DNA of 23,566 bases from a virus, in the IMG/VR virus record IMGVR_UViG_3300042351_000420, positions 1 to 23,566 of that record; one strand, given 5' to 3'. The notes under the pieces are model-generated. The model made no database searches. It saw nothing but the letters and a program-made list of their open reading frames with translations, and was not told the DNA's origin. Shown here piece after piece: positions 8,187 to 22,937 of the stretch. The position numbers were made by a program, and so were the translations under genes. Within the stretch, counting starts at the first letter, position 1; every line of letters begins with the position of its first letter.

Positions 8187-9446
8187 TTATTGTAAATGAA
8201 CCAAATTATCATAATTCGTTCCTTCATCTGCTTTGACGGGGAATCCACCTTTTTCCATAATGGTCGGTAGGAGGTTCAAAATTTTATCTCTTTCGGATGG
8301 GTGAGTGTCGATTAGGAACGCATCATATGTGTATAAGATTATTTTCGATTTCATCCCACTCATAAACTCCAACATCTCTACCATCTTCATATAGTTTATT
8401 TCAGTTTCTAATGCTTGTAGAAGATAGTTAAATATTTTTTGTTGATTCGGTAATTCGATTCGATTATGATTAATTTCCCTTTTAAATAAAGGTGTCGTTA
8501 ATTTACCCGAAATTACATACCGTTGATACAAACTCTCAATATATGAATCTACTTTTTGAAAGAACGGTATCCCTCTTGCAAAATCGTCTAAACCTCCGTA
8601 GAGATATTTAAACGTTAATCCTTTTGCCGTATCGTAATCCGTTCCATAATGGTTTGCAAGATATTGGTGAGCAGATATTCCTTTTGGAAACTTATACCCT
8701 ATCAATCCCGCAATCAAACGGATGTGGTAAGATTCATAATCAAATTGAATTAAACTCCCAAACGTCCACCTACTTATGATAGTTCCCCTACTCCCATCAC
8801 CTTTAGGAAGAGCAGAGTAATTTACGTTTAAGTGTCTATTGGATGGTCTACCCGTAATAGTATATGGATTGTATTGTGTGTGTACCCTACCCTCATTGAT
8901 GTATCTATAATCGAAGCTAAATCTATCAATAAAATTTTCCACTTCGACTTGAACCCCAGCCCCTTCCACTTTTCCTAATAGAGAGATTGAATCTGAATAC
9001 TTACGATACCAATCCTTTATCTCAAAACCTTCAGGTATTGATTTTAAGAGTTCGTACCACTTCATAAGAGGAATACAGTCGTTGTTGAAAAGATAATCGT
9101 TTCTATACCCCTTAAAAAGAGTTTCTACAAAATCATTAAATATAAATGGTTTACCTACTGATTCAAAATATACCCACTCATAATCAAGTCCGTTTGATTG
9201 GATATATCGGTTTCCTAATACTAATGTGTTTGGATTGCAGAGTTTAGATATTGGAAATGGTGTAACAGAATCCGCATCAATGTGTTGGAAATTTAAAATA
9301 AAATCCGTATCTTTAGTTTTTATATATACAAATGAAATTGGAAACATTGATTGATGCCCCCTTTGAGAACTCCATACAGGAACTATCAATAAAATCTCCT
9401 CTGGATTTAATAAGTGTAAATCTATATCTTTCTCAATTATATTCAT
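8187..9446 (-). CDS. Family A DNA polymerase, minimal form without recognisable exonuclease domain
   Basis: The 419-residue protein carries family A polymerase motifs in order: VHTQYNPYTITGRPSNRHLN (188-207, the TGR-S region); motif A IQFDYESYHIRLIAGL (233-248, catalytic D236); motif B AKGLTFKYLYGG (274-285, K275, F279, Y283, G284); FNYLLQALETEINYM (339-353); and motif C YTYDAFLID (372-380, catalytic D375). Two usual residues differ: the first O-helix Arg position is Y271, and motif C HDE reads YDA. It is much shorter than Klenow fragment (about 605 residues). The first 150 residues show no clear 3'-5' exonuclease motifs. T4 itself uses a family B polymerase. Phage RM378 is reported, as I recall, to carry polymerase and exonuclease as separate genes, which this resembles. 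A host-type promoter ends 5 bases before its ATG. Confidence 0.85.
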   Translation of the reverse strand: MNIIEKDIDLHLLNPEEILLIVPVWSSQRGHQSMFPISFVYIKTKDTDFILNFQHIDADSVTPFPISKLCNPNTLVLGNRYIQSNGLDYEWVYFESVGKPFIFNDFVETLFKGYRNDYLFNNDCIPLMKWYELLKSIPEGFEIKDWYRKYSDSISLLGKVEGAGVQVEVENFIDRFSFDYRYINEGRVHTQYNPYTITGRPSNRHLNVNYSALPKGDGSRGTIISRWTFGSLIQFDYESYHIRLIAGLIGYKFPKGISAHQYLANHYGTDYDTAKGLTFKYLYGGLDDFARGIPFFQKVDSYIESLYQRYVISGKLTTPLFKREINHNRIELPNQQKIFNYLLQALETEINYMKMVEMLEFMSGMKSKIILYTYDAFLIDTHPSERDKILNLLPTIMEKGGFPVKADEGTNYDNLVHLQ

Positions 9447-14403: not shown

Positions 14404-17157
14404 TTATTTTGCTAAACCGTATGATGCTCTATTTGAATTTAATAATGTTTTATTTACTTTAATACCATCCAAATTAATTGTTTTACCAGTTTCTGTACTT
14501 GTTAATATAGCTTGTAATAATGCGTTTGTAGTAGCTTGTTGTGCAATTTGTTCGTTTGCTATTTTATTTCCAAATTCAAATTCTTTTTGATGGATTATTC
14601 CTCTAATACCCGCCTCAGATTGGGTTTTACTATCTACCGTAAGTTGATTTTTACTTATTGTACTTGCAGTATCTGTTATTGCTTTTGTACTAGTATCTTG
14701 TATTCCTTTAAATCCATCATTTGTTAAACTTCCTCCTCCTCCTGTACCAGCTGCTTTTTTAAGTTCAGCTGCTTTTTGTCTTTGTACTTCTGCTAACGCA
14801 TCTTTTGTAGATGCTATATTATTTTCTTTAGCTTGTAATTTATCTTTTTTACCTTGCCAATCTGCATCACCTGTGGCTGAACCTACAAACATTCTATAAA
14901 AAGGAAGATTTCTTTCTGCCCAAGTACCAACCCCTTCCATTTTATTTTTTTCTTGAATTGCAAGTGATTTTTTTAAATCTGCTTCCTTTTTAGCTAATTC
15001 ATCTGCTTTCTTTTTAGCTAATACTTGAGTTCCACCAAAGAAATCTTCTGCATTTAATTGTCCTCCTTTAGCTGCTGCTTTTCCTGCTGCATCTCTATAA
15101 TCTAATATTCTTTTATCACTACCACTAACATAACCCGCTGCAACTAATTTTGCTAAATCAGATTGAGATTTTCCAAATGAAGCAGTTGCATCTTGCATTT
15201 GTTGTGCAGTTGCTTTGGCAGGTAATAACGTTTTAAATTCACCTGTAAAATTTCCAAATAGATTTGCCATATTACTGGCAGCAGTAGTAGCTCTCATTTC
15301 TTGAACTGCTCTATCTATGTCTTGGTCATTTTCTAATTTGGCAGTTTTTATTCTCCATTTGGCTTCTAACGCAATTCCATCCAATCTTTGCAATTGTTCA
15401 ATAGCCAACATATCCAACCTTTTATCCTGTTCAAACTTTAACATTTTAGCTCGCATATCTTGCTCCATAGCAAGTTTTGTAGCTTCGTTTGAAATATCTT
15501 GTCTTAATGCACCATTTGCTATTGCCGCTCCCGTTTTTGCTGCGTTTTCTGCTTCTAATTGTCCTTTTGATTTGGTTTCTTTTCCGGACATCATATTCAT
15601 TAACTCACCAATATCCATACCAGTTGCTTGACTCAATTGTTGTTTAGCAAATGGATTCATTGCACCAATATCAATTCCACCTAACGCGGATTTCATTGCA
15701 CTTGCAGCTTCTGAAGTTTTACCACTCATTAAAAGAGCTCTTGTCTCAGAAAGGTCTACATTTTGACCTAACATAGCACCCAAACTCATTTCTGCTTGTA
15801 TGCTATCTTTATAATTTAATACCATTGCATCAGATGCTTTCATCATTGAAGTCATTGATGTATTCATGCTTTTTAACTGAACAATCTGTTTAGCATATTC
15901 CATTGAAGTGTAATTTGTATATTTAAATATTTCTTCTTGTGAATCTGCCATTTCTTTATGCAATTGAGCAGGAGACATATCGTTCATTTTTGCAAATGCA
16001 GCCACACCCGCTACCATATTTAATGCTTGGCGTGCAGTAGATTTATCCATTAATCTAAACGTTTTACTCATTGTTAAAACTTCATCCGAAGTTGCTCCAA
16101 ACATTGCACCCAATCCTGCGGCAGAGGTTGCCATTGAGACTTGATTTTTTAATGTAGTTCCTAATGTAACTCCTACGTTTTTAACTGCATCCATTACTGC
16201 TTCAGTTGATGAACCTATTGCTTGTAATGCTCTTTCAGAAATTCCTATAGATTTTCGCATATTACTCATATTAAGAGTAAATAACGTTTTGGTTCTTGCC
16301 GCATTTGCTTCAAACGTTTGAACCGCTTGTTGCTGCGAAAAATTCATCCAATCAGCTTCTTTATCTTTTCTAAAGTTATATTCGTCTGTAACTAAACTTT
16401 GTTGATAAGTTAATAAATCAGTTTCAGATTGTTTTTGTAAATCAAACATATCCCTTTCCATTGCCTGTCTTTGCAGTAATGGTTGAACAAAGTTCCAATT
16501 AGCTTTCTTTTGTCTACCTTCTTTGGTATCCAAATACAATCCTTTATCTCTTTTAAATGATGCAGAATTGGGGTCAGCTGACATTGCGGTTTTATTATCA
16601 AACATTACTGATAATGCCGTACCCGTCTCATAAAGTTTTCCTCTTACCTCTTCTATCGCATCGGCAAAGGCACTTACTGCTTGGTATGCTGCAATTATTT
16701 GACCTCCAAATTTTACCATCCCACCACCAAATTTTGCCAATGAACCAGTAACTGAACCAAATTTAGATGCTAATCCCATTCCAGACTTTAGAACATCTCC
16801 AGCTGGTCCTTTTTTATTTTTTACACCTGAGAATGATTTAAGAAATGCATCTGCACCTTTTTTACCAAGTATGTTACTCCAACCTTTCATGTTTTTTGCA
16901 CCAAACATATCGTTTAGGTCACTTTGTCCTTGGGCAAGTTTTTTCTCAGTTGGAGTTAATTTTTTCTTTTTTTCTTCCTTACCGGCGTTTTTAGCAGCTT
17001 GTTCTACGTTGTTTGCAGCAGATGCCATTTTATCTGCGGCATCTGCAAATTTATCCATAACAGGTCCTAATGCAGAACTAATTGAACGTGAGACAGCGGA
17101 TGCAATTCCTCTTTCAGTAGTTTGTGATTTTAGATTACTTGTTGATTTTTTGGCCAT
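14404..17157 (-). CDS. Tail tape measure protein (T4 gp29 position)
   Basis: This is the longest protein in the window (917 residues), Ala/Lys/Gln/Met-rich and largely helical. It has a Ser/Lys-rich N-terminus, an Ala-rich region (DKMASAANNVEQAAKNAGKE), a hydrophobic stretch near 130-165 (LAKFGGGMVKFGGQIIAAYQ), and heptad-like charged helices (MLKFEQDKRLDMLAIEQLQR; DQDIDRAVQEMRATTAAS). The position directly after the two-part assembly chaperone and before baseplate genes is that of tape measure genes. At about 1.5 angstrom per residue, the usual rule, it predicts a tail tube of about 135 nm, longer than that of T4 (gp29, 590 residues). Its ATG is preceded by TTCTGCGTAA and a late octamer. Confidence 0.88.
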   Translation of the reverse strand: MAKKSTSNLKSQTTERGIASAVSRSISSALGPVMDKFADAADKMASAANNVEQAAKNAGKEEKKKKLTPTEKKLAQGQSDLNDMFGAKNMKGWSNILGKKGADAFLKSFSGVKNKKGPAGDVLKSGMGLASKFGSVTGSLAKFGGGMVKFGGQIIAAYQAVSAFADAIEEVRGKLYETGTALSVMFDNKTAMSADPNSASFKRDKGLYLDTKEGRQKKANWNFVQPLLQRQAMERDMFDLQKQSETDLLTYQQSLVTDEYNFRKDKEADWMNFSQQQAVQTFEANAARTKTLFTLNMSNMRKSIGISERALQAIGSSTEAVMDAVKNVGVTLGTTLKNQVSMATSAAGLGAMFGATSDEVLTMSKTFRLMDKSTARQALNMVAGVAAFAKMNDMSPAQLHKEMADSQEEIFKYTNYTSMEYAKQIVQLKSMNTSMTSMMKASDAMVLNYKDSIQAEMSLGAMLGQNVDLSETRALLMSGKTSEAASAMKSALGGIDIGAMNPFAKQQLSQATGMDIGELMNMMSGKETKSKGQLEAENAAKTGAAIANGALRQDISNEATKLAMEQDMRAKMLKFEQDKRLDMLAIEQLQRLDGIALEAKWRIKTAKLENDQDIDRAVQEMRATTAASNMANLFGNFTGEFKTLLPAKATAQQMQDATASFGKSQSDLAKLVAAGYVSGSDKRILDYRDAAGKAAAKGGQLNAEDFFGGTQVLAKKKADELAKKEADLKKSLAIQEKNKMEGVGTWAERNLPFYRMFVGSATGDADWQGKKDKLQAKENNIASTKDALAEVQRQKAAELKKAAGTGGGGSLTNDGFKGIQDTSTKAITDTASTISKNQLTVDSKTQSEAGIRGIIHQKEFEFGNKIANEQIAQQATTNALLQAILTSTETGKTINLDGIKVNKTLLNSNRASYGLAK

Positions 17158-17196: not shown

Positions 17197-17421
17197 TTAC
17201 TTTCTTCTAGCTAATGAATTTCTATTTCCAGATGATTTATTAATAATATCTTCGTATGAATTTTTTTCCTGCTCTTTGGCATTTAATAATTCATTCCAAT
17301 AAAATTCTCTTAATTTGACGGGCATAAAATATAAGTCACTCCAATTAAACCCACCATTAGAATTATAGATAATAGTAAATATTTTTTTATGTAAAGCTAC
17401 AGAATAATTAATCGGCAGGGT
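17197..17421 (-). CDS. gp51-like extension of the tail assembly chaperone, reached by +1 (or -2) frameshift
   Basis: The frame is open from 17448 to a TAA at 17199-17197. After the putative shift site it encodes 74 residues, TLPINYSVALHKKIF..., including GGFNWSDLYFMPVKLREFYW, a pattern ('GG-F-x-W-x-D-x-x-x-M-P-x-x-L-R-x-F-Y') I associate with gp51-type proteins next to gp26 in T4-like phages. There is no ATG, GTG or TTG upstream of the conserved part. The only ATG is the M of MPVKLREF and would delete half the domain. The frame is +1 relative to the end of the 271-aa gene, which it overlaps. If joined at the Phe-Phe codons the fusion is 267 + 74 = 341 residues. In T4 the gene order is 26-51-27-28-29. 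Confidence 0.7.
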   Translation of the reverse strand, partial: TLPINYSVALHKKIFTIIYNSNGGFNWSDLYFMPVKLREFYWNELLNAKEQEKNSYEDIINKSSGNRNSLARRK

Positions 17422-18223
17422 AAAAAAAGTCTGCCGAAATCGGCACTTTCAACGCCTCCGTTTCGTTAGTAAAAGGTGATGTATATTCAAATGTAAAATC
17501 TACATCAGGTGTAATCGTTGCCATATATTTTCTTAATGCTCTTGCATCTTGTGCTTGAAATTGATTAATTACAAAATTACTAATATATCCAACTTCTCTA
17601 TTTCCATTTACTTCAATTATAACTCTTCTATATCTAGCAGTTACTTCATTTGATTGTTTTAAAGTTTTTTCAGCTGCTTCAATATCTTTTTGAATTGATA
17701 TTTCATCACCATGAGTAAGTAATTTAAATTTAATATCAGCACCAGATTTTGGTAATTTAAAACCATATTCGTTTTCTCTATTTAATTTAGATTCATCAAC
17801 TTCTTTAATTGATAATTTACCCATATCTACTGTAACTTCTACATTTTCATTTTCAGAAGGGTCTGTTACATTTACTTTGTATTCAGCACCATAAGCTAAT
17901 ACACGTGTTGCAACTAATATTGCATTTTTATCACCTATTAGTAAATCATTAATATTAATAGATGAATCCACAATAATTGATTCTAACAATTTATCTAAAA
18001 CAATTCCTTTACGAATGAGATTTGTAGAAGTTAAAATATCTTCTTCTTTTGCAGTTAATAATTTAACTGTAATCTCCCCTTTTGATAATGGATTTGATTC
18101 CGGATATACCAAACCTTTTGATGGTAATGAAATTACTTCAGTAGGAAATGGATAGGATTTTTGTTGTTGTGTAAACTGAGGTCCTAAACCTCGTGTAACT
18201 TGTTGTTCTAATTGTTCTTCCAT
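17408..18223 (-). CDS. Tail assembly chaperone / T4 gp26-like baseplate hub assembly protein
   Basis: The 271-residue protein has PTEVISLPSKGLVYPESNPL (27-46), then GEITVKLLTAKEEDILTSTN (49-68), LIRKGIVLDKLLESIIVD and IGDKNAILVATRVLAYGAEY (96-115). This is the pattern of the T4 gp26 'T4_baseplate' family ('LPSKGLxYPE... G-x-I-x-x-x-x-x-T-x-x-E-E-D-I-L... L-I-x-x-G'). A gene of this type just before the tape measure is the expected tail assembly chaperone. It ends ADFFYPAD at a TTT TTT TAC run, where the +1 frame opens into a gp51-like domain. A late-type motif with one mismatch and an upstream terminator suggest that it begins a new transcript. Confidence 0.8.
   Translation of the reverse strand: MEEQLEQQVTRGLGPQFTQQQKSYPFPTEVISLPSKGLVYPESNPLSKGEITVKLLTAKEEDILTSTNLIRKGIVLDKLLESIIVDSSININDLLIGDKNAILVATRVLAYGAEYKVNVTDPSENENVEVTVDMGKLSIKEVDESKLNRENEYGFKLPKSGADIKFKLLTHGDEISIQKDIEAAEKTLKQSNEVTARYRRVIIEVNGNREVGYISNFVINQFQAQDARALRKYMATITPDVDFTFEYTSPFTNETEALKVPISADFFYPAD
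17412..17444 (-). promoter_or_regulatory. Putative programmed frameshift site with flanking hairpins
   Basis: In the mRNA, GAC TTT TTT TAC contains a T7 run (plus-strand A7 at 17422-17428). A Phe tRNA on the second TTT can slip +1 or -2 with full pairing, entering the gp51-like frame. The run lies in a 12-base loop closed by a perfect 7-bp stem, TCGGCAG (17437-17431) with CTGCCGA (17418-17412). An alternative hairpin, GCCG-ATTT-CGGC (17444-17433), lies just 5' of the run. These GC-rich stems stand out in AT-rich DNA. Confidence 0.62.
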
Positions 18224-18320: not shown

Positions 18321-18809
18321 TTAGTATTCTAATATTGCGTAATCATAAGTTAAAGTTAATTCGATTGAAACAGGGTCGTTTGATGCCCAATCCAATTCAC
18401 CAAAGTTTGCAGATGTAATAAATGCTCCTTTGATTGTCCATTGTTCAACTTTATCACCCACTGGTCCTAATAAAAAGAAAGTAACATCTTTTTTATAGAA
18501 TGATGAGTATCCATCTCTACCCGTTAATGATTCATGTGATTGACGAATCCACTCCATAACTTGCTGTGCTCCAGATGGAACGATTGGGTCATAAAGAGTG
18601 ATGTTCATATCATCCCAATTAGATTTTCCTTTTATCTTACGCTTTACGTTGATATGGTCTAATTCAACTATTTCTGAAGTAAATGTTGGTCTACTTGCAG
18701 TTTTAATGATGTATGATTCGATACCATTGATTTCCATAATGAATCTATTACCAAGCTTTGGTTCAAAATTCTTATAAAATATCTTGTCAAATTCTAATAT
18801 TTCTGGCAT
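18321..18809 (-). CDS. Tail tube protein, T4 gp19 family
   Basis: The 162-residue length equals that of T4 gp19 (163 residues). The protein starts MPEILEFDKIFYKNFEPKLG and contains NRFIMEINGIESYIIKTASRP (in part), VELDHINVKRKIKGKSNWDD and MNITLYDPI. It ends with TIKGAFITSANFGELDWASN and SIELTLTYDYAILEY. The order of 'F-x-M-x-I-x-G', 'W-x-x-M-x-I-T-L-Y-D-P' and 'D-P-x-x-I-x-L-T-L-x-Y-D-x-A' is characteristic of the gp19/Hcp-like tube family. It would stack as hexameric rings inside the sheath. It follows the sheath gene with a late octamer in the gap and is followed by a terminator. Confidence 0.93.
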   Translation of the reverse strand: MPEILEFDKIFYKNFEPKLGNRFIMEINGIESYIIKTASRPTFTSEIVELDHINVKRKIKGKSNWDDMNITLYDPIVPSGAQQVMEWIRQSHESLTGRDGYSSFYKKDVTFFLLGPVGDKVEQWTIKGAFITSANFGELDWASNDPVSIELTLTYDYAILEY

Positions 18810-18857: not shown

Positions 18858-21119
18858 TTATCCGTTAAACGCCGCGCCAGTTGGTAAGATGTTGAAATCA
18901 ATTTGAATGAATTCAGCTGTCTTAGTTGGTTGTAAGTAGATAGCTCCTTTCATAATGTTTCTATCAATTACATCTGGTGTGTTATTAGAATCATCCATTA
19001 TTACTCTAAACGCGTAAAGTCCTTGTCTTTGTTGGATTGATTCCAAATAAGGATTTACGATGTTTAAGAATCTATTTCTAGTTTCAGCAGTATTTTGTTC
19101 AAATACCAAATATCTAGAAGTAGATGCAATGTATTTTCTAACCGTTAATAATAATCTTCTTACGTTAATTCTATCCAATGCAGATGGTTTATCTTGTAAT
19201 GTTTTTTGTCCGAATACTACAATACCTTGTCCAGGGAACTGAACGATTGGGTTTACCTTTCCTTCATATAATGTATCCTTTTCAGATTGAGTTAATCTAT
19301 CCAACACTGCTACCGCTCCAATTAATCCACCTCTGTTTAAACCCGCTGGTGCGAACCATTCAGCTGCTACTCTATCGTTTGATGCAAATACACCAGGTAA
19401 TAATACCGATGGTGGAACTGTAATAAGTTTATTTGTGTTTACATCAATTGTTTTAATCCAAGGATAATAGAATGCCGCGTAGTTGGTATCAACTGCGTCT
19501 GCTTGCGTTACAGTTGCTGCTAAATTTGTAGTAGCATTACCCGCATCCGCAATAAAAAATGCATCACTTCTTTCTTCAACCATATCCAATATAGATGTGA
19601 ATACAGATGGGTGGTCTGCTCTATTTACACCAGGTGCTACAACCATATTAATATCGTATTCATCTTGATTAGATAAAGCCGCGATGTGTTTACCATATGC
19701 TTGAGTACCGGTTGATATTGATGTTGATAAATCAAATCCTTGTGTATTTCCTGCATTAATGTCAGAACCTTTGTTAATTACAGTTGCAGGACTTAAACCA
19801 TCAAATCCTTCTTGGAACGCTACAACAAACTGTGCGTATGAATTACCTACGGATAATGCTGCACCGTTCGTAATTGAATCATCTAAACCAAATGCAGTAT
19901 TTGCACCGGTTGTAGCTCCGTTAGGAATTGGTTTTAAATATATTTTATTATCATCTTTAATAATTGTACTATCTAAGTTTATGCCAGAATAGTAAATTGA
20001 ACTAGATGCTGCAGATGAACCAGTTGCGTAAGTTACAGTTGGAATTAATGCACTTACTAATGTTGATGCAGATATTGGTAATTTATATGCCTCATGTCCA
20101 AATGGAACTGCTTGAACAGGTGCTGCCGAATTTAAGTTTTTAATTCTAATATATTTTGAATTATTAACCCAATCACCATTTTCTGTTATTTTTCCAGATG
20201 ATGCAATTTGTCTGTATCTATCTCCTATTACTCTTGAAATATAATTAGGAGAGTTAGGGTCTAGATTTACATTTGCAAATGTTTCTAATACTACTTTTTT
20301 CTTATCAGTATCATTGAAATCTCTTACAACTACTGTAAATATACCATAATCAGTACCATTTACAGACCCCGCTGCTTTAATATTTGTAATACCAATTTTT
20401 ACTTTAGTATTTGCCGCATTTCCTGCTCCAATTGTTTCAAATTGGAATAAATTTGTTCTACTTCCTCCAATTGTTTGTGATTGAATATATGGAGTTACTG
20501 CTTCTTGTGCGTCAAATGCGAAGTCTTGGTCACCTAATGCTAAAACCGAAGATGATGCACTACCATCTAAAGTAACACCGTGGTTTTTAAAGAATCCATA
20601 TACATACGCACCTTTAGAACCAAATGGGGAATTACCAAATACAGATTCAATATCATTTGTACTTTCTGGGTTTAGTGAAATAGAACCACTATATCCTAAT
20701 TCAGAACCACTAATAGTTAAATTTCCATTAAATGAATTAGATGCTTCGGAATTGGTAAATCCGATTGCGTCAGTATCAGTATTAAATAAAATACCTGCAA
20801 CTTTTGTACCAGTTGAACCTGATACTTGTATTAATAGAGGATTTTGTTCAGTATATCCACCGATTCCTCCAACTCTACAGATTGTAGCAACTCCTGATTC
20901 TCTTAAATATGATTGTACTGCTAAAGGTGTGTAGTATGTATCATCAACTGTTCCAAAAAGTTCTTGAAATTCTGATTGAGAATTTACAATTGTTGGAACT
21001 AAAGGTCCTTCTTTAAAAGGTCCGATGAAAGCTGCACCAATATCAGCTACACCTTGTTGTAAAAATGAAAGGTCGTTTTCTTTTGTAAAAACACCTGGTG
21101 ATACTATTTTGTCTGCCAT
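18858..21119 (-). CDS. Contractile tail sheath protein, T4 gp18 family
   Basis: The 753-residue protein (T4 gp18 has 659) starts MADKIVSPGVFTKENDLSF, the standard 'S-P-G-V-x-x-x-E-x-D' opening of sheath proteins. IGAAFIGPFKEGPLVPTIV follows and is also typical. A long variable, Ser/Thr/Gly-rich middle (about residues 90-430) holds the surface domains. The conserved C-terminal region (from about residue 560) has PPSVLLPGVFASNDRVAAEW, FAPAGLNRGGL, a Q-P-Q-like VNPIVQFPGQGIVVFGQKTL (in part), and RRLLLTVRKYIASTSRYLVF. It is the outer contractile cylinder of the tail. It has a late octamer 34 bases upstream and a start context of ACAAATGGC without Shine-Dalgarno. Confidence 0.95.
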   Translation of the reverse strand: MADKIVSPGVFTKENDLSFLQQGVADIGAAFIGPFKEGPLVPTIVNSQSEFQELFGTVDDTYYTPLAVQSYLRESGVATICRVGGIGGYTEQNPLLIQVSGSTGTKVAGILFNTDTDAIGFTNSEASNSFNGNLTISGSELGYSGSISLNPESTNDIESVFGNSPFGSKGAYVYGFFKNHGVTLDGSASSSVLALGDQDFAFDAQEAVTPYIQSQTIGGSRTNLFQFETIGAGNAANTKVKIGITNIKAAGSVNGTDYGIFTVVVRDFNDTDKKKVVLETFANVNLDPNSPNYISRVIGDRYRQIASSGKITENGDWVNNSKYIRIKNLNSAAPVQAVPFGHEAYKLPISASTLVSALIPTVTYATGSSAASSSIYYSGINLDSTIIKDDNKIYLKPIPNGATTGANTAFGLDDSITNGAALSVGNSYAQFVVAFQEGFDGLSPATVINKGSDINAGNTQGFDLSTSISTGTQAYGKHIAALSNQDEYDINMVVAPGVNRADHPSVFTSILDMVEERSDAFFIADAGNATTNLAATVTQADAVDTNYAAFYYPWIKTIDVNTNKLITVPPSVLLPGVFASNDRVAAEWFAPAGLNRGGLIGAVAVLDRLTQSEKDTLYEGKVNPIVQFPGQGIVVFGQKTLQDKPSALDRINVRRLLLTVRKYIASTSRYLVFEQNTAETRNRFLNIVNPYLESIQQRQGLYAFRVIMDDSNNTPDVIDRNIMKGAIYLQPTKTAEFIQIDFNILPTGAAFNG

Positions 21120-21188: not shown

Positions 21189-22937
21189 TTATTTGTAGTT
21201 AGGAGAGAAATAATCATATACTTGTCCTACTTGTGCCGCAGTTTGTAATGTGTTATAAAATAATACTGGTCCAATTTGTCCGTTCCAAAATGTATTTCTT
21301 GCACTATTACTACCGATTGTTACATAGTTAGTTGATGATGGTGCAGTAAATGCATTTGTAGCAGATGTTCCTACCGATGTTTTATCTACATATACTGTTG
21401 CAGTTCCGGATGGTTGGAATGTTGCCGAAATCATATACCAAACGTTTGAAGATAATGAAGTTGTATGTAAATTACTATTTCCTAATATACTACCATAGAA
21501 TCTTACTCTATTTAAAGTAGAAAGGTTTGTTGATTCAATTGCTAAACCATAAAATCCACCATAGTCAAAAATATGTCTTGTACTAGTACCCAATGTTGTT
21601 GTAGGTCTAATCCAAATGTGAATAGTACCTGTATTTGTATTAAATTGAGTTATACCTCCATTAATATTTGATGCAGTATCTTTATAAAATAAATCTTCAC
21701 CATCAAAAGAATAGTATCTTTCTTTTCTACTTGCACCATTATTGTATGCCGGATTTCCACCTGATTTTGATAACGGTCCCTGTGCTCCAGGTCTAACACC
21801 CGTACCATACCCACTCATATCCAATAAATCCACCGTTGGTGTACCAGTTGCGGGTAACGAACCTGCTGCAAATGATGCAGTTTTAGCAGGTTCTAAATAC
21901 ATTCTTAATCCAGATGCAGGTATACGTGGTTGAGTTGCCGTTCCTTTGTTGTGTGATATTGTATTATTTGCCAAATAAACGTCAGCATTTTCTACATTAA
22001 GTGTTACAATTTCAACATCTTCTACTATTTTAGCAACATCATATACCAATACTTCAACCAAACCATCAGTTTCATCATAAGTTAATACTGAATCTCCTGG
22101 TAATATGTTTTCTACGGCTTTAAAGTGATATTTTTGTGTTTCCGAATCAAGTACATATAATGGGTGAGTTCCGGTTGCTTTTATTAAACCATTGTTAATG
22201 TTGTAATACCCACTTGCAAAGTTAAATGTAATATCAGATACAGTTACATCCTGATATTCACCCTCAGCAGTATCTGAATTAAACATTCTCCATTCAGTTG
22301 CTTCTGTATCAGTACCATCTAATGATTCATCTGGTAATCCTGCTGGCACCCATGCTTTAATTACATCACCAACTGCCAAATCTTCTATATTTACAACAGT
22401 ATTATCTGCTTTTGTTATAGGAGTATCAAATAATAAACAGAAATCAGGTTGATTAATTGTGTTATAAACATCAACTGCAAATAAAGTTTTTGTAACAGTA
22501 GAGTTATAATTTGTTGCCGTAGTATTAAAACCATCATTATAAGTCATCGATAAAATTGATTCTGCTTCAGAATATGTTGATACTGATATTCCTGCTGCTG
22601 CTACGGGAAACGTTGAAGTTGCTCCTAATGTTGCAGCATTAACTACAAAGTTTGCATTATTAAATGATACCGAATAGTTTGCAGCTACACCAGCAACTCT
22701 TGTAGTATGAGCAGCTCCTGCACTTCCAAATGTAAATGTAGCATTTTCAATTGTATTTTCTACAATATATGTAAAAGTTGGTGGAGTTACATTTACTGAA
22801 TCAATTGCAAATGCTCCAATGGAAATTGAAGTTCCTGCATTTGCATTTCGTGCATTTAATGATGATGCTTGTGAAGTTCTTGCTGAACCTACAGTTGCTC
22901 TGTATAAATTTCCTAAAGATAAATTATTTTTTGGCAT
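21189..22937 (-). CDS. Virion adhesin-like protein with internal Hint (intein-like) domain and C-terminal LamG-like domain
   Basis: The 582-residue protein has three parts. Residues 1-166 are Ala/Thr/Asn-rich and beta-like (structural, no family seen). Residues 167-330 form a Hint domain: Cys167 opens CLLFDTPITKADNT with VVNIEDLAVGDVIKAW, the TxxH motif is TGTH (255-258), and the end is VYLANNTISHN with His329-Asn330. Residues 340-582 resemble a LamG/concanavalin jelly-roll: YYSFDGEDLF, GTIHIWIRP, VWYMISATFQPSGTATVYVD and WNGQIGPVLFYNTLQTAAQV. Position before sheath and tube, and next to a glycosyltransferase, suggests a tail or neck fibre that binds host glycans. Lys331 follows the Asn, so ordinary splicing is unlikely, but cleavage at one or both ends is possible. 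Confidence 0.82.
   Translation of the reverse strand: MPKNNLSLGNLYRATVGSARTSQASSLNARNANAGTSISIGAFAIDSVNVTPPTFTYIVENTIENATFTFGSAGAAHTTRVAGVAANYSVSFNNANFVVNAATLGATSTFPVAAAGISVSTYSEAESILSMTYNDGFNTTATNYNSTVTKTLFAVDVYNTINQPDFCLLFDTPITKADNTVVNIEDLAVGDVIKAWVPAGLPDESLDGTDTEATEWRMFNSDTAEGEYQDVTVSDITFNFASGYYNINNGLIKATGTHPLYVLDSETQKYHFKAVENILPGDSVLTYDETDGLVEVLVYDVAKIVEDVEIVTLNVENADVYLANNTISHNKGTATQPRIPASGLRMYLEPAKTASFAAGSLPATGTPTVDLLDMSGYGTGVRPGAQGPLSKSGGNPAYNNGASRKERYYSFDGEDLFYKDTASNINGGITQFNTNTGTIHIWIRPTTTLGTSTRHIFDYGGFYGLAIESTNLSTLNRVRFYGSILGNSNLHTTSLSSNVWYMISATFQPSGTATVYVDKTSVGTSATNAFTAPSSTNYVTIGSNSARNTFWNGQIGPVLFYNTLQTAAQVGQVYDYFSPNYK
21948..22439 (-). other. Hint domain inside the adhesin (Cys167 to Asn330)
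   Basis: This is the part of the adhesin gene that encodes the intein-like fold. Its 164 codons start at the Cys codon (22439-22437) and end at the Asn codon (21950-21948). There is no endonuclease insert: 164 residues is a mini-intein or bacterial-intein-like size. Catalytic positions visible are Cys1, the T and H of TGTH, and the terminal His-Asn. The +1 residue is Lys, not Cys, Ser or Thr. Confidence 0.8.

Follow-up and report, generated by a model that had tools for sequence, protein, structure and literature searches.

The locus studied here raises the question of how a conserved coding frame that has no start codon ahead of its conserved core comes to be translated. It lies on the minus strand of a 23,566-base stretch of viral DNA, called the window in the following. 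Read directly, the window contains a 271-residue gp26-like ORF (18223-17408) whose 3' end reads ...GCA GAC TTT TTT TAC CCT GCC GAT TAA. The GAC codon (17429-17431) places its C directly 5' of a T7 run (17428-17422). The +1 frame is open from upstream of this run through to a TAA at 17199-17197; the extension (17197-17421) comprises 74 codons after the slip plus the stop, and together with the short form it makes up a long form of 341 residues. A start codon scan found a single ATG, GTG or TTG in the open +1 frame, an ATG inside the conserved segment FMPVK and 85 nt beyond the stop of the short form. The -1 frame closes shortly past the run. The initial annotation of this DNA had already described the 74-codon continuation, its lack of a usable start and the early -1 stop. 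It had also let the gene end at GAC TTT TTT TAC; the 271 residues and the T7 run hold, while the true stop lies four codons past TAC. In a profile search of the whole window, the two pieces at 18223-17197 were the only copies found of the chaperone domain (G) and of the extension domain (T).

The best explanation, to which we give a probability of roughly 0.9, is the tail chaperone locus of a contractile-tailed phage of the T4 type, of the G/G-T kind, in which a programmed +1 frameshift would lead to the 341-residue long form. It builds on the open frame and its coding conservation, the slip site and offset, the homology to the gp26 family and the position between the tail tube gene and the presumed tape measure gene, all of which were observed.

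The short form (TAC-N, or G) was correctly taken for a gp26-like tail assembly chaperone. It matches PF12322 (T4_baseplate) with an E-value of 6.6e-8 and 32.9 bits, above the gathering cut-off of 24.5 bits, and phrog_150 (baseplate hub) with an E-value of 3.2e-13. An AF2 model of the short form (pLDDT 83.6) matched models of gp26-family proteins in the structure search. Its first match in the PDB was a weak one, to the HK97 tail assembly chaperone gp13 (2ob9; Foldseek E 0.74, Z 4.5, 97 of 104 residues); by sequence, no match to any solved tail chaperone was obtained in the PDB.

The gene order fits this assignment. Upstream lies a gp19-like tail tube protein (18321-18809, minus strand; PF06841, E 7.4e-11), and downstream a large gene of 917 codons (14404-17157, minus strand), assigned to the tape measure by position only. 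The 917-residue protein has no clear Pfam or PHROG match; the gene in the same position is annotated as tape measure in immuto and LIS04. The tail sheath protein (18858-21119, minus strand; 753 residues) was identified by PF04984 (E 5.5e-16) and phrog_23 (E 5.6e-72). Its Pfam sheath domains begin at residue 477, leaving a large N-terminal or inserted part without a Pfam match.

Other genes of the window were noted in passing. A minus-strand ORF at 8187-9446 encodes 419 residues and contains the C-terminal portion of a DNA polymerase of family A (PF00476, E 6.5e-8, slightly below the curated score); no exonuclease match was found in this protein, and the window has a 5'-3' exonuclease as a gene of its own at 1516-2583. 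A GroES-like co-chaperonin is encoded at 1202-1555 on the minus strand (PF00166, E 9.2e-24), its start probably being inside the listed ORF. The 582-residue protein at 21189-22937 (minus strand) has a C-terminal lectin-like domain (PF13385) and in its middle a possible Hint/intein-like stretch, matched by PF14890 at an E-value of 0.94 only.

For the comparison, 80 viral contigs with a relative of the window's branch were retrieved, and relatives from isolate branches were added later. The Phe-Phe site, the overlap and the +1 offset were all kept in 80 of the 80, far more than chance would give, and most of these relatives carry the motif GGF.W.D.Y.MP..LREFY in the extension. The loci were surveyed with profile models of both domains. 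Both domains were present in 252 loci, and in every one of them the T ORF overlaps that of G, 167 times in the +1 frame, 85 times in the -1 frame and never in the same frame; in one further locus (L196) T is absent, at the contig end. Thinning at 95% identity left 36 sequences with complete junctions in the window's branch, 48 in the Immuto-like branch and 78 in the cyanophage branch. An alignment of relatives, which the initial annotation had proposed as a check, bore it out: overlap, +1 offset and the TTT-Y codon are kept in 36/36 sequences of the window's branch and 48/48 of the Immuto branch.

The extension evolves as a protein under purifying selection. In the window's branch, dN/dS of the T frame was about 0.087 (n = 36, less than 95% identical), compared with 1.1-2.2 in two control frames. 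The values were 0.22 in the Immuto branch (n = 47), with the control frames of both +1 branches spanning 1.1-2.4, and 0.057 in the cyanophage branch (n = 77), with the other frames over the three branches at 1.1-3.1. These are simple pairwise counts made with no likelihood model, and the contrast between the T frame and the controls is very large.

One could argue that the extension is a separate gene, translated from a weak non-standard start or by translational coupling. A distant jumbo phage (L085) indeed encodes the domain separately, in a gene whose ATG overlaps the stop of the gene before it, and the loci of the survey's -1 branch carry an ATG nearby. However, no ATG, GTG or TTG precedes the conserved domain in 34 loci, i. 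e. the window and 33 other +1 loci including SP-15, and several -1 phages (ZPAH1, Melnitz-3, Kuja and a Variovorax phage) likewise have no ATG ahead of the domain start, which makes a frameshift likely there too. Moreover, a separate gene would need neither the overlap nor a fixed offset nor fixed slip codons. We therefore regard this explanation as unlikely. Judged by sequence comparison, the locus has these features of a G/G-T pair: an extension without a start codon that overlaps G out of frame, a conserved slip site, and purifying selection.

Given a frameshift, the same frame could also be entered by a -2 slip, and the initial annotation had left the choice between +1 and -2 open. A -2 slip is used by phage Mu (PMC5009743), and on TTT TTT T it would allow perfect re-pairing as well. 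The decision comes from relatives in which the run is broken and the +1 offset is nevertheless kept: TTC TTT T (L066), TTT CTT (Immuto), TTT CTA (L184 and L206), TTC TTT C (GXN1) and TTT CTA TTC (L082). Each of these variants has TTT followed by T or C, so that tRNA-Phe re-pairs fully on TTT or TTC after a +1 shift and is mismatched after a -2 shift. The comparison thus strongly supports a programmed +1 shift, and a -2 slip is rejected as improbable.

The same relatives argue against RNA polymerase slippage, by which a share of the mRNAs would carry an insertion or deletion. The T7 stretch of the window is a homopolymer run of the kind this would need, yet in many relatives the run shrinks to 3-4 Ts and the +1 frame is still kept, which leaves this explanation with very little probability. 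A homopolymer at a frame junction is also a usual site of sequencing or assembly errors, and a misread run had been named beforehand as what could overturn the frameshift; an error or a decayed gene can practically be dismissed, since the junction recurs across independent metagenome contigs and also in isolate genomes, whether or not a homopolymer is present, and purifying selection acts on the extension.

At a +1 programmed frameshift as favored here, most ribosomes would terminate at the TAA and release the 271-residue short chaperone. A fraction would slip at TTT-TTT-T, where the peptidyl-tRNA-Phe in the P site can re-pair after moving from UUU to the overlapping UUU, and would produce the long form with its small, probably helical C-terminal domain. 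This resembles the +1 shift of bacterial prfB (CUU U), in which the P-site tRNA also re-pairs one base downstream; UUU and CCC are the next most slippery codons there (PMC10885494). Unlike in prfB, the A site holds no stop codon but TAC in the window and TGG, CGT or CAC in the relatives. Slippage in vivo and its rate, as well as the binding roles of the two forms, are what we infer from these data. In lambda, a short and a frameshift-extended chaperone are likewise encoded directly upstream of the tape measure gene (Xu, Hendrix & Duda 2004; PMC5009743), with the difference that -1 is usual in lambda and its relatives whereas the site in the window is +1. If the analogy to G/G-T holds, many short and few long copies may form a coat on the tape measure protein, and the tail tube protein may be recruited by the extension. 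A +1 shift in a tail chaperone locus has a counterpart in the archaeal myovirus HSTV-2, described as very likely using +1 frameshifting (PMC5009743); the two are likened by that description.

The window and its relatives can be set against T4-type phages that shift in the other direction. In cyanophages and KVP40, T_TTT_TTC stands beside the stop and the T domain follows in the -1 frame; all of the thinned cyanophage sequences (78/78) have a T in front of TTT TTC. Further -1 isolates are phiN3 and Melnitz-3 (T_TTT_TTT), Moby, ZPAH1 and the Variovorax phage (T_TTT_TTC) and Kuja (C_CTT_TTT). These -1 junctions share with the window's branch the gene order, the Phe-Phe junction and a related T domain. 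What differs is the offset and the heptamer. The window has a +1 offset and, in front of the run, a C and not the T of the T4-type -1 heptamer T_TTT_TTY. More generally, a T hardly ever stands in front of the run in the +1 branches, whereas it always does in the -1 branch of the cyanophages. Rhodothermus phage RM378 (C before TTT TTT T) has the +1 arrangement, as have SP-15, LIS04, GXN1, immuto, Microcystis phage Mel-JY01 and L082, and in none of the seven is the slipping TTT preceded by T. In L066 (GAT TTC TTT T), a C stands directly before the run itself. In a tree of the G proteins, a split with 100/100 support has all +1 rows on one side and all -1 rows together with T4 on the other, long branches leaving the positions within the -1 side unsure. 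The jumbo phage L085, in which T is a gene of its own that starts at an ATG and which is one of the 85 loci with a -1 offset, falls on the +1 side of the tree.

Further signals were found around the slip site at the RNA level. In five-codon windows, synonymous variation in the G gene is most strongly suppressed at the slip site in both +1 branches. Bases downstream of the slip are fixed by double coding; those upstream are not so constrained. In the window's branch, the Asp codon before the run is GAC in 33/34 sequences as against about 13% elsewhere in the gene, and a Gly codon three codons (6 nt) upstream of the site is GGG in 31/33 as against about 6% elsewhere. The window itself has TCG at the latter position; thus GGG is not required. 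In the window, a GGAGG element (17455-17459, minus strand) lies 26 nt 5' of the first TTT. Every sequence of the window's branch (36/36) has it exactly 26 nt ahead of the first Phe codon; in the Immuto branch it stands mostly at 25-26 nt and in another codon phase. The element is synonymously fixed. In all of these counts, those of GAC and GGG included, related sequences enter separately, for which reason we give no probabilities. At this spacing, GGAGG is too far upstream to act at the P site as an ordinary internal Shine-Dalgarno sequence. Both GGAGG and GGG may stimulate the slip. In the cyanophage branch (L091-L170), GGAGG was seen 11 nt upstream of TTT TTC in 24/78 thinned sequences; 11 nt is the spacing usual for a Shine-Dalgarno sequence that stimulates -1 shifts.

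In the window alone, a fold around the slip site pairs CGGAGG with CCUGCCG (z -1.6). The alignment around the site revealed no compensatory change and a differing consensus, hence no covarying stimulatory RNA structure; because the pairing downstream bases are fixed by double coding and the consensus differs, we do not claim an RNA structure. Searches with Rfam and for tRNAs found nothing.

A tentative interpretation, which we hold to be rather doubtful as a whole, is that frameshifting changed its direction a single time, at the deepest split among the T4-type chaperones. The base ahead of the Phe-Phe codons could then be the main switch, T leading to -1 and any other base to +1, and the +1 branch could use a new stimulator in the form of GGAGG, placed at a constant 26 nt, which is farther than an internal Shine-Dalgarno sequence usually reaches.

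The initial annotation had called the extension a gp51-like domain. This applies, through a transitive link, to the last 48 or so residues of T4 gp51; the rest of gp51 is a paralogue of gp26. PF12322 matches residues 1-206 of T4 gp26 and 1-201 of gp51, and phrog_634 has matches in the small proteins of KVP40 and Bellamy and at residues 147-246 of gp51. Together these matches indicate that gp51 is a gp26 paralogue with the T domain fused in frame. In agreement with this, a model of a T4-type gp51 shows the gp26-like order of elements followed by three C-terminal helices. Among the structural matches of this model are gp26 proteins and SP-15; when it was run through VIA-align, no row reached a Z of 5. 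The window protein (P0001) matched phrog_150 and not phrog_634. Profile comparisons linked the T domain of the window's branch to that of Immuto (99%) and to SP-15, GXN1 and LIS04 (91%), all +1 T domains to those of cyanophages and KVP40 (87%), and the latter to the C-terminus of T4-type gp51 (93%). Among the G profiles, the +1 branch was linked to the -1 branch (96%) and the -1 branch to gp51 (97%). Direct comparisons were not significant, neither between the T domain of the window and the +1 branch and the gp51 C-terminus (hhalign) nor between the +1-branch G and gp51. The extension may thus be related to the C-terminal part of gp51 by way of intermediate profiles.

The T4 proteins gp26 (TAC-N) and gp51 (TAC-NC) belong to the same G family as the protein of the window, and a related C-terminal domain is carried by the longer protein only. 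T4 encodes the two in separate genes, which lie on opposite strands of the T4 record and of which gp51 has T fused in frame, whereas the window has one gene and a predicted +1 slip. The T4 genes 26 and 51 are reportedly separate TAC genes, and frameshifting is said to be kept in several T4-like groups.

T4 relatives are known mainly for a -1 slip or for two separate genes. Placing T4 gp26 and gp51 in the G/G-T scheme, as the initial annotation did, is sound and was published before: according to the papers citing them, Vladimirov, Gautam & Davidson (Virology 2022) described T4-like phages with one short and one fused long gene (PMC10885494) and poly-T -1 signals in their TAC-N genes (PMC12846349). 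By these citations, both the recognition of gp26 and gp51 as tail chaperones and the -1 form are prior art. In the literature, with Vladimirov et al. 2022 represented by what its citing papers report, we found no description of a +1 form in the T4-type chaperone family, nor of the +1 branch and its clean split from the -1 branch, of the base before the run that tracks direction, or of GGAGG exactly 26 nt upstream.

The locus belongs to a large, mostly unannotated T4-type branch that includes Immuto, SP-15, LIS04, GXN1, RM378 and Mel-JY01 as well as numerous environmental contigs. Several public annotations lack the extension or give it in truncated form: the T domain is cut off at an internal ATG in immuto26A_233, SP15_046 and Melnitz3_109 (L083 5860-5970, L087 4821-4940 and L269 2250-2393, respectively) and unannotated in GXN1, LIS04 and ZPAH1 (L084, L088 and L271). 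A review from 2016 considered G-T frameshifting, with -1, -2 and +1 cases, to be conserved in long-tailed phages except T4 (PMC5009743). Although T4 is named there as the exception, the rule appears to hold in the window's branch, by way of a +1 slip. Since the -1 and the +1 branches have the junction and the domains in common, they represent a natural experiment on what sets the direction of a frameshift.
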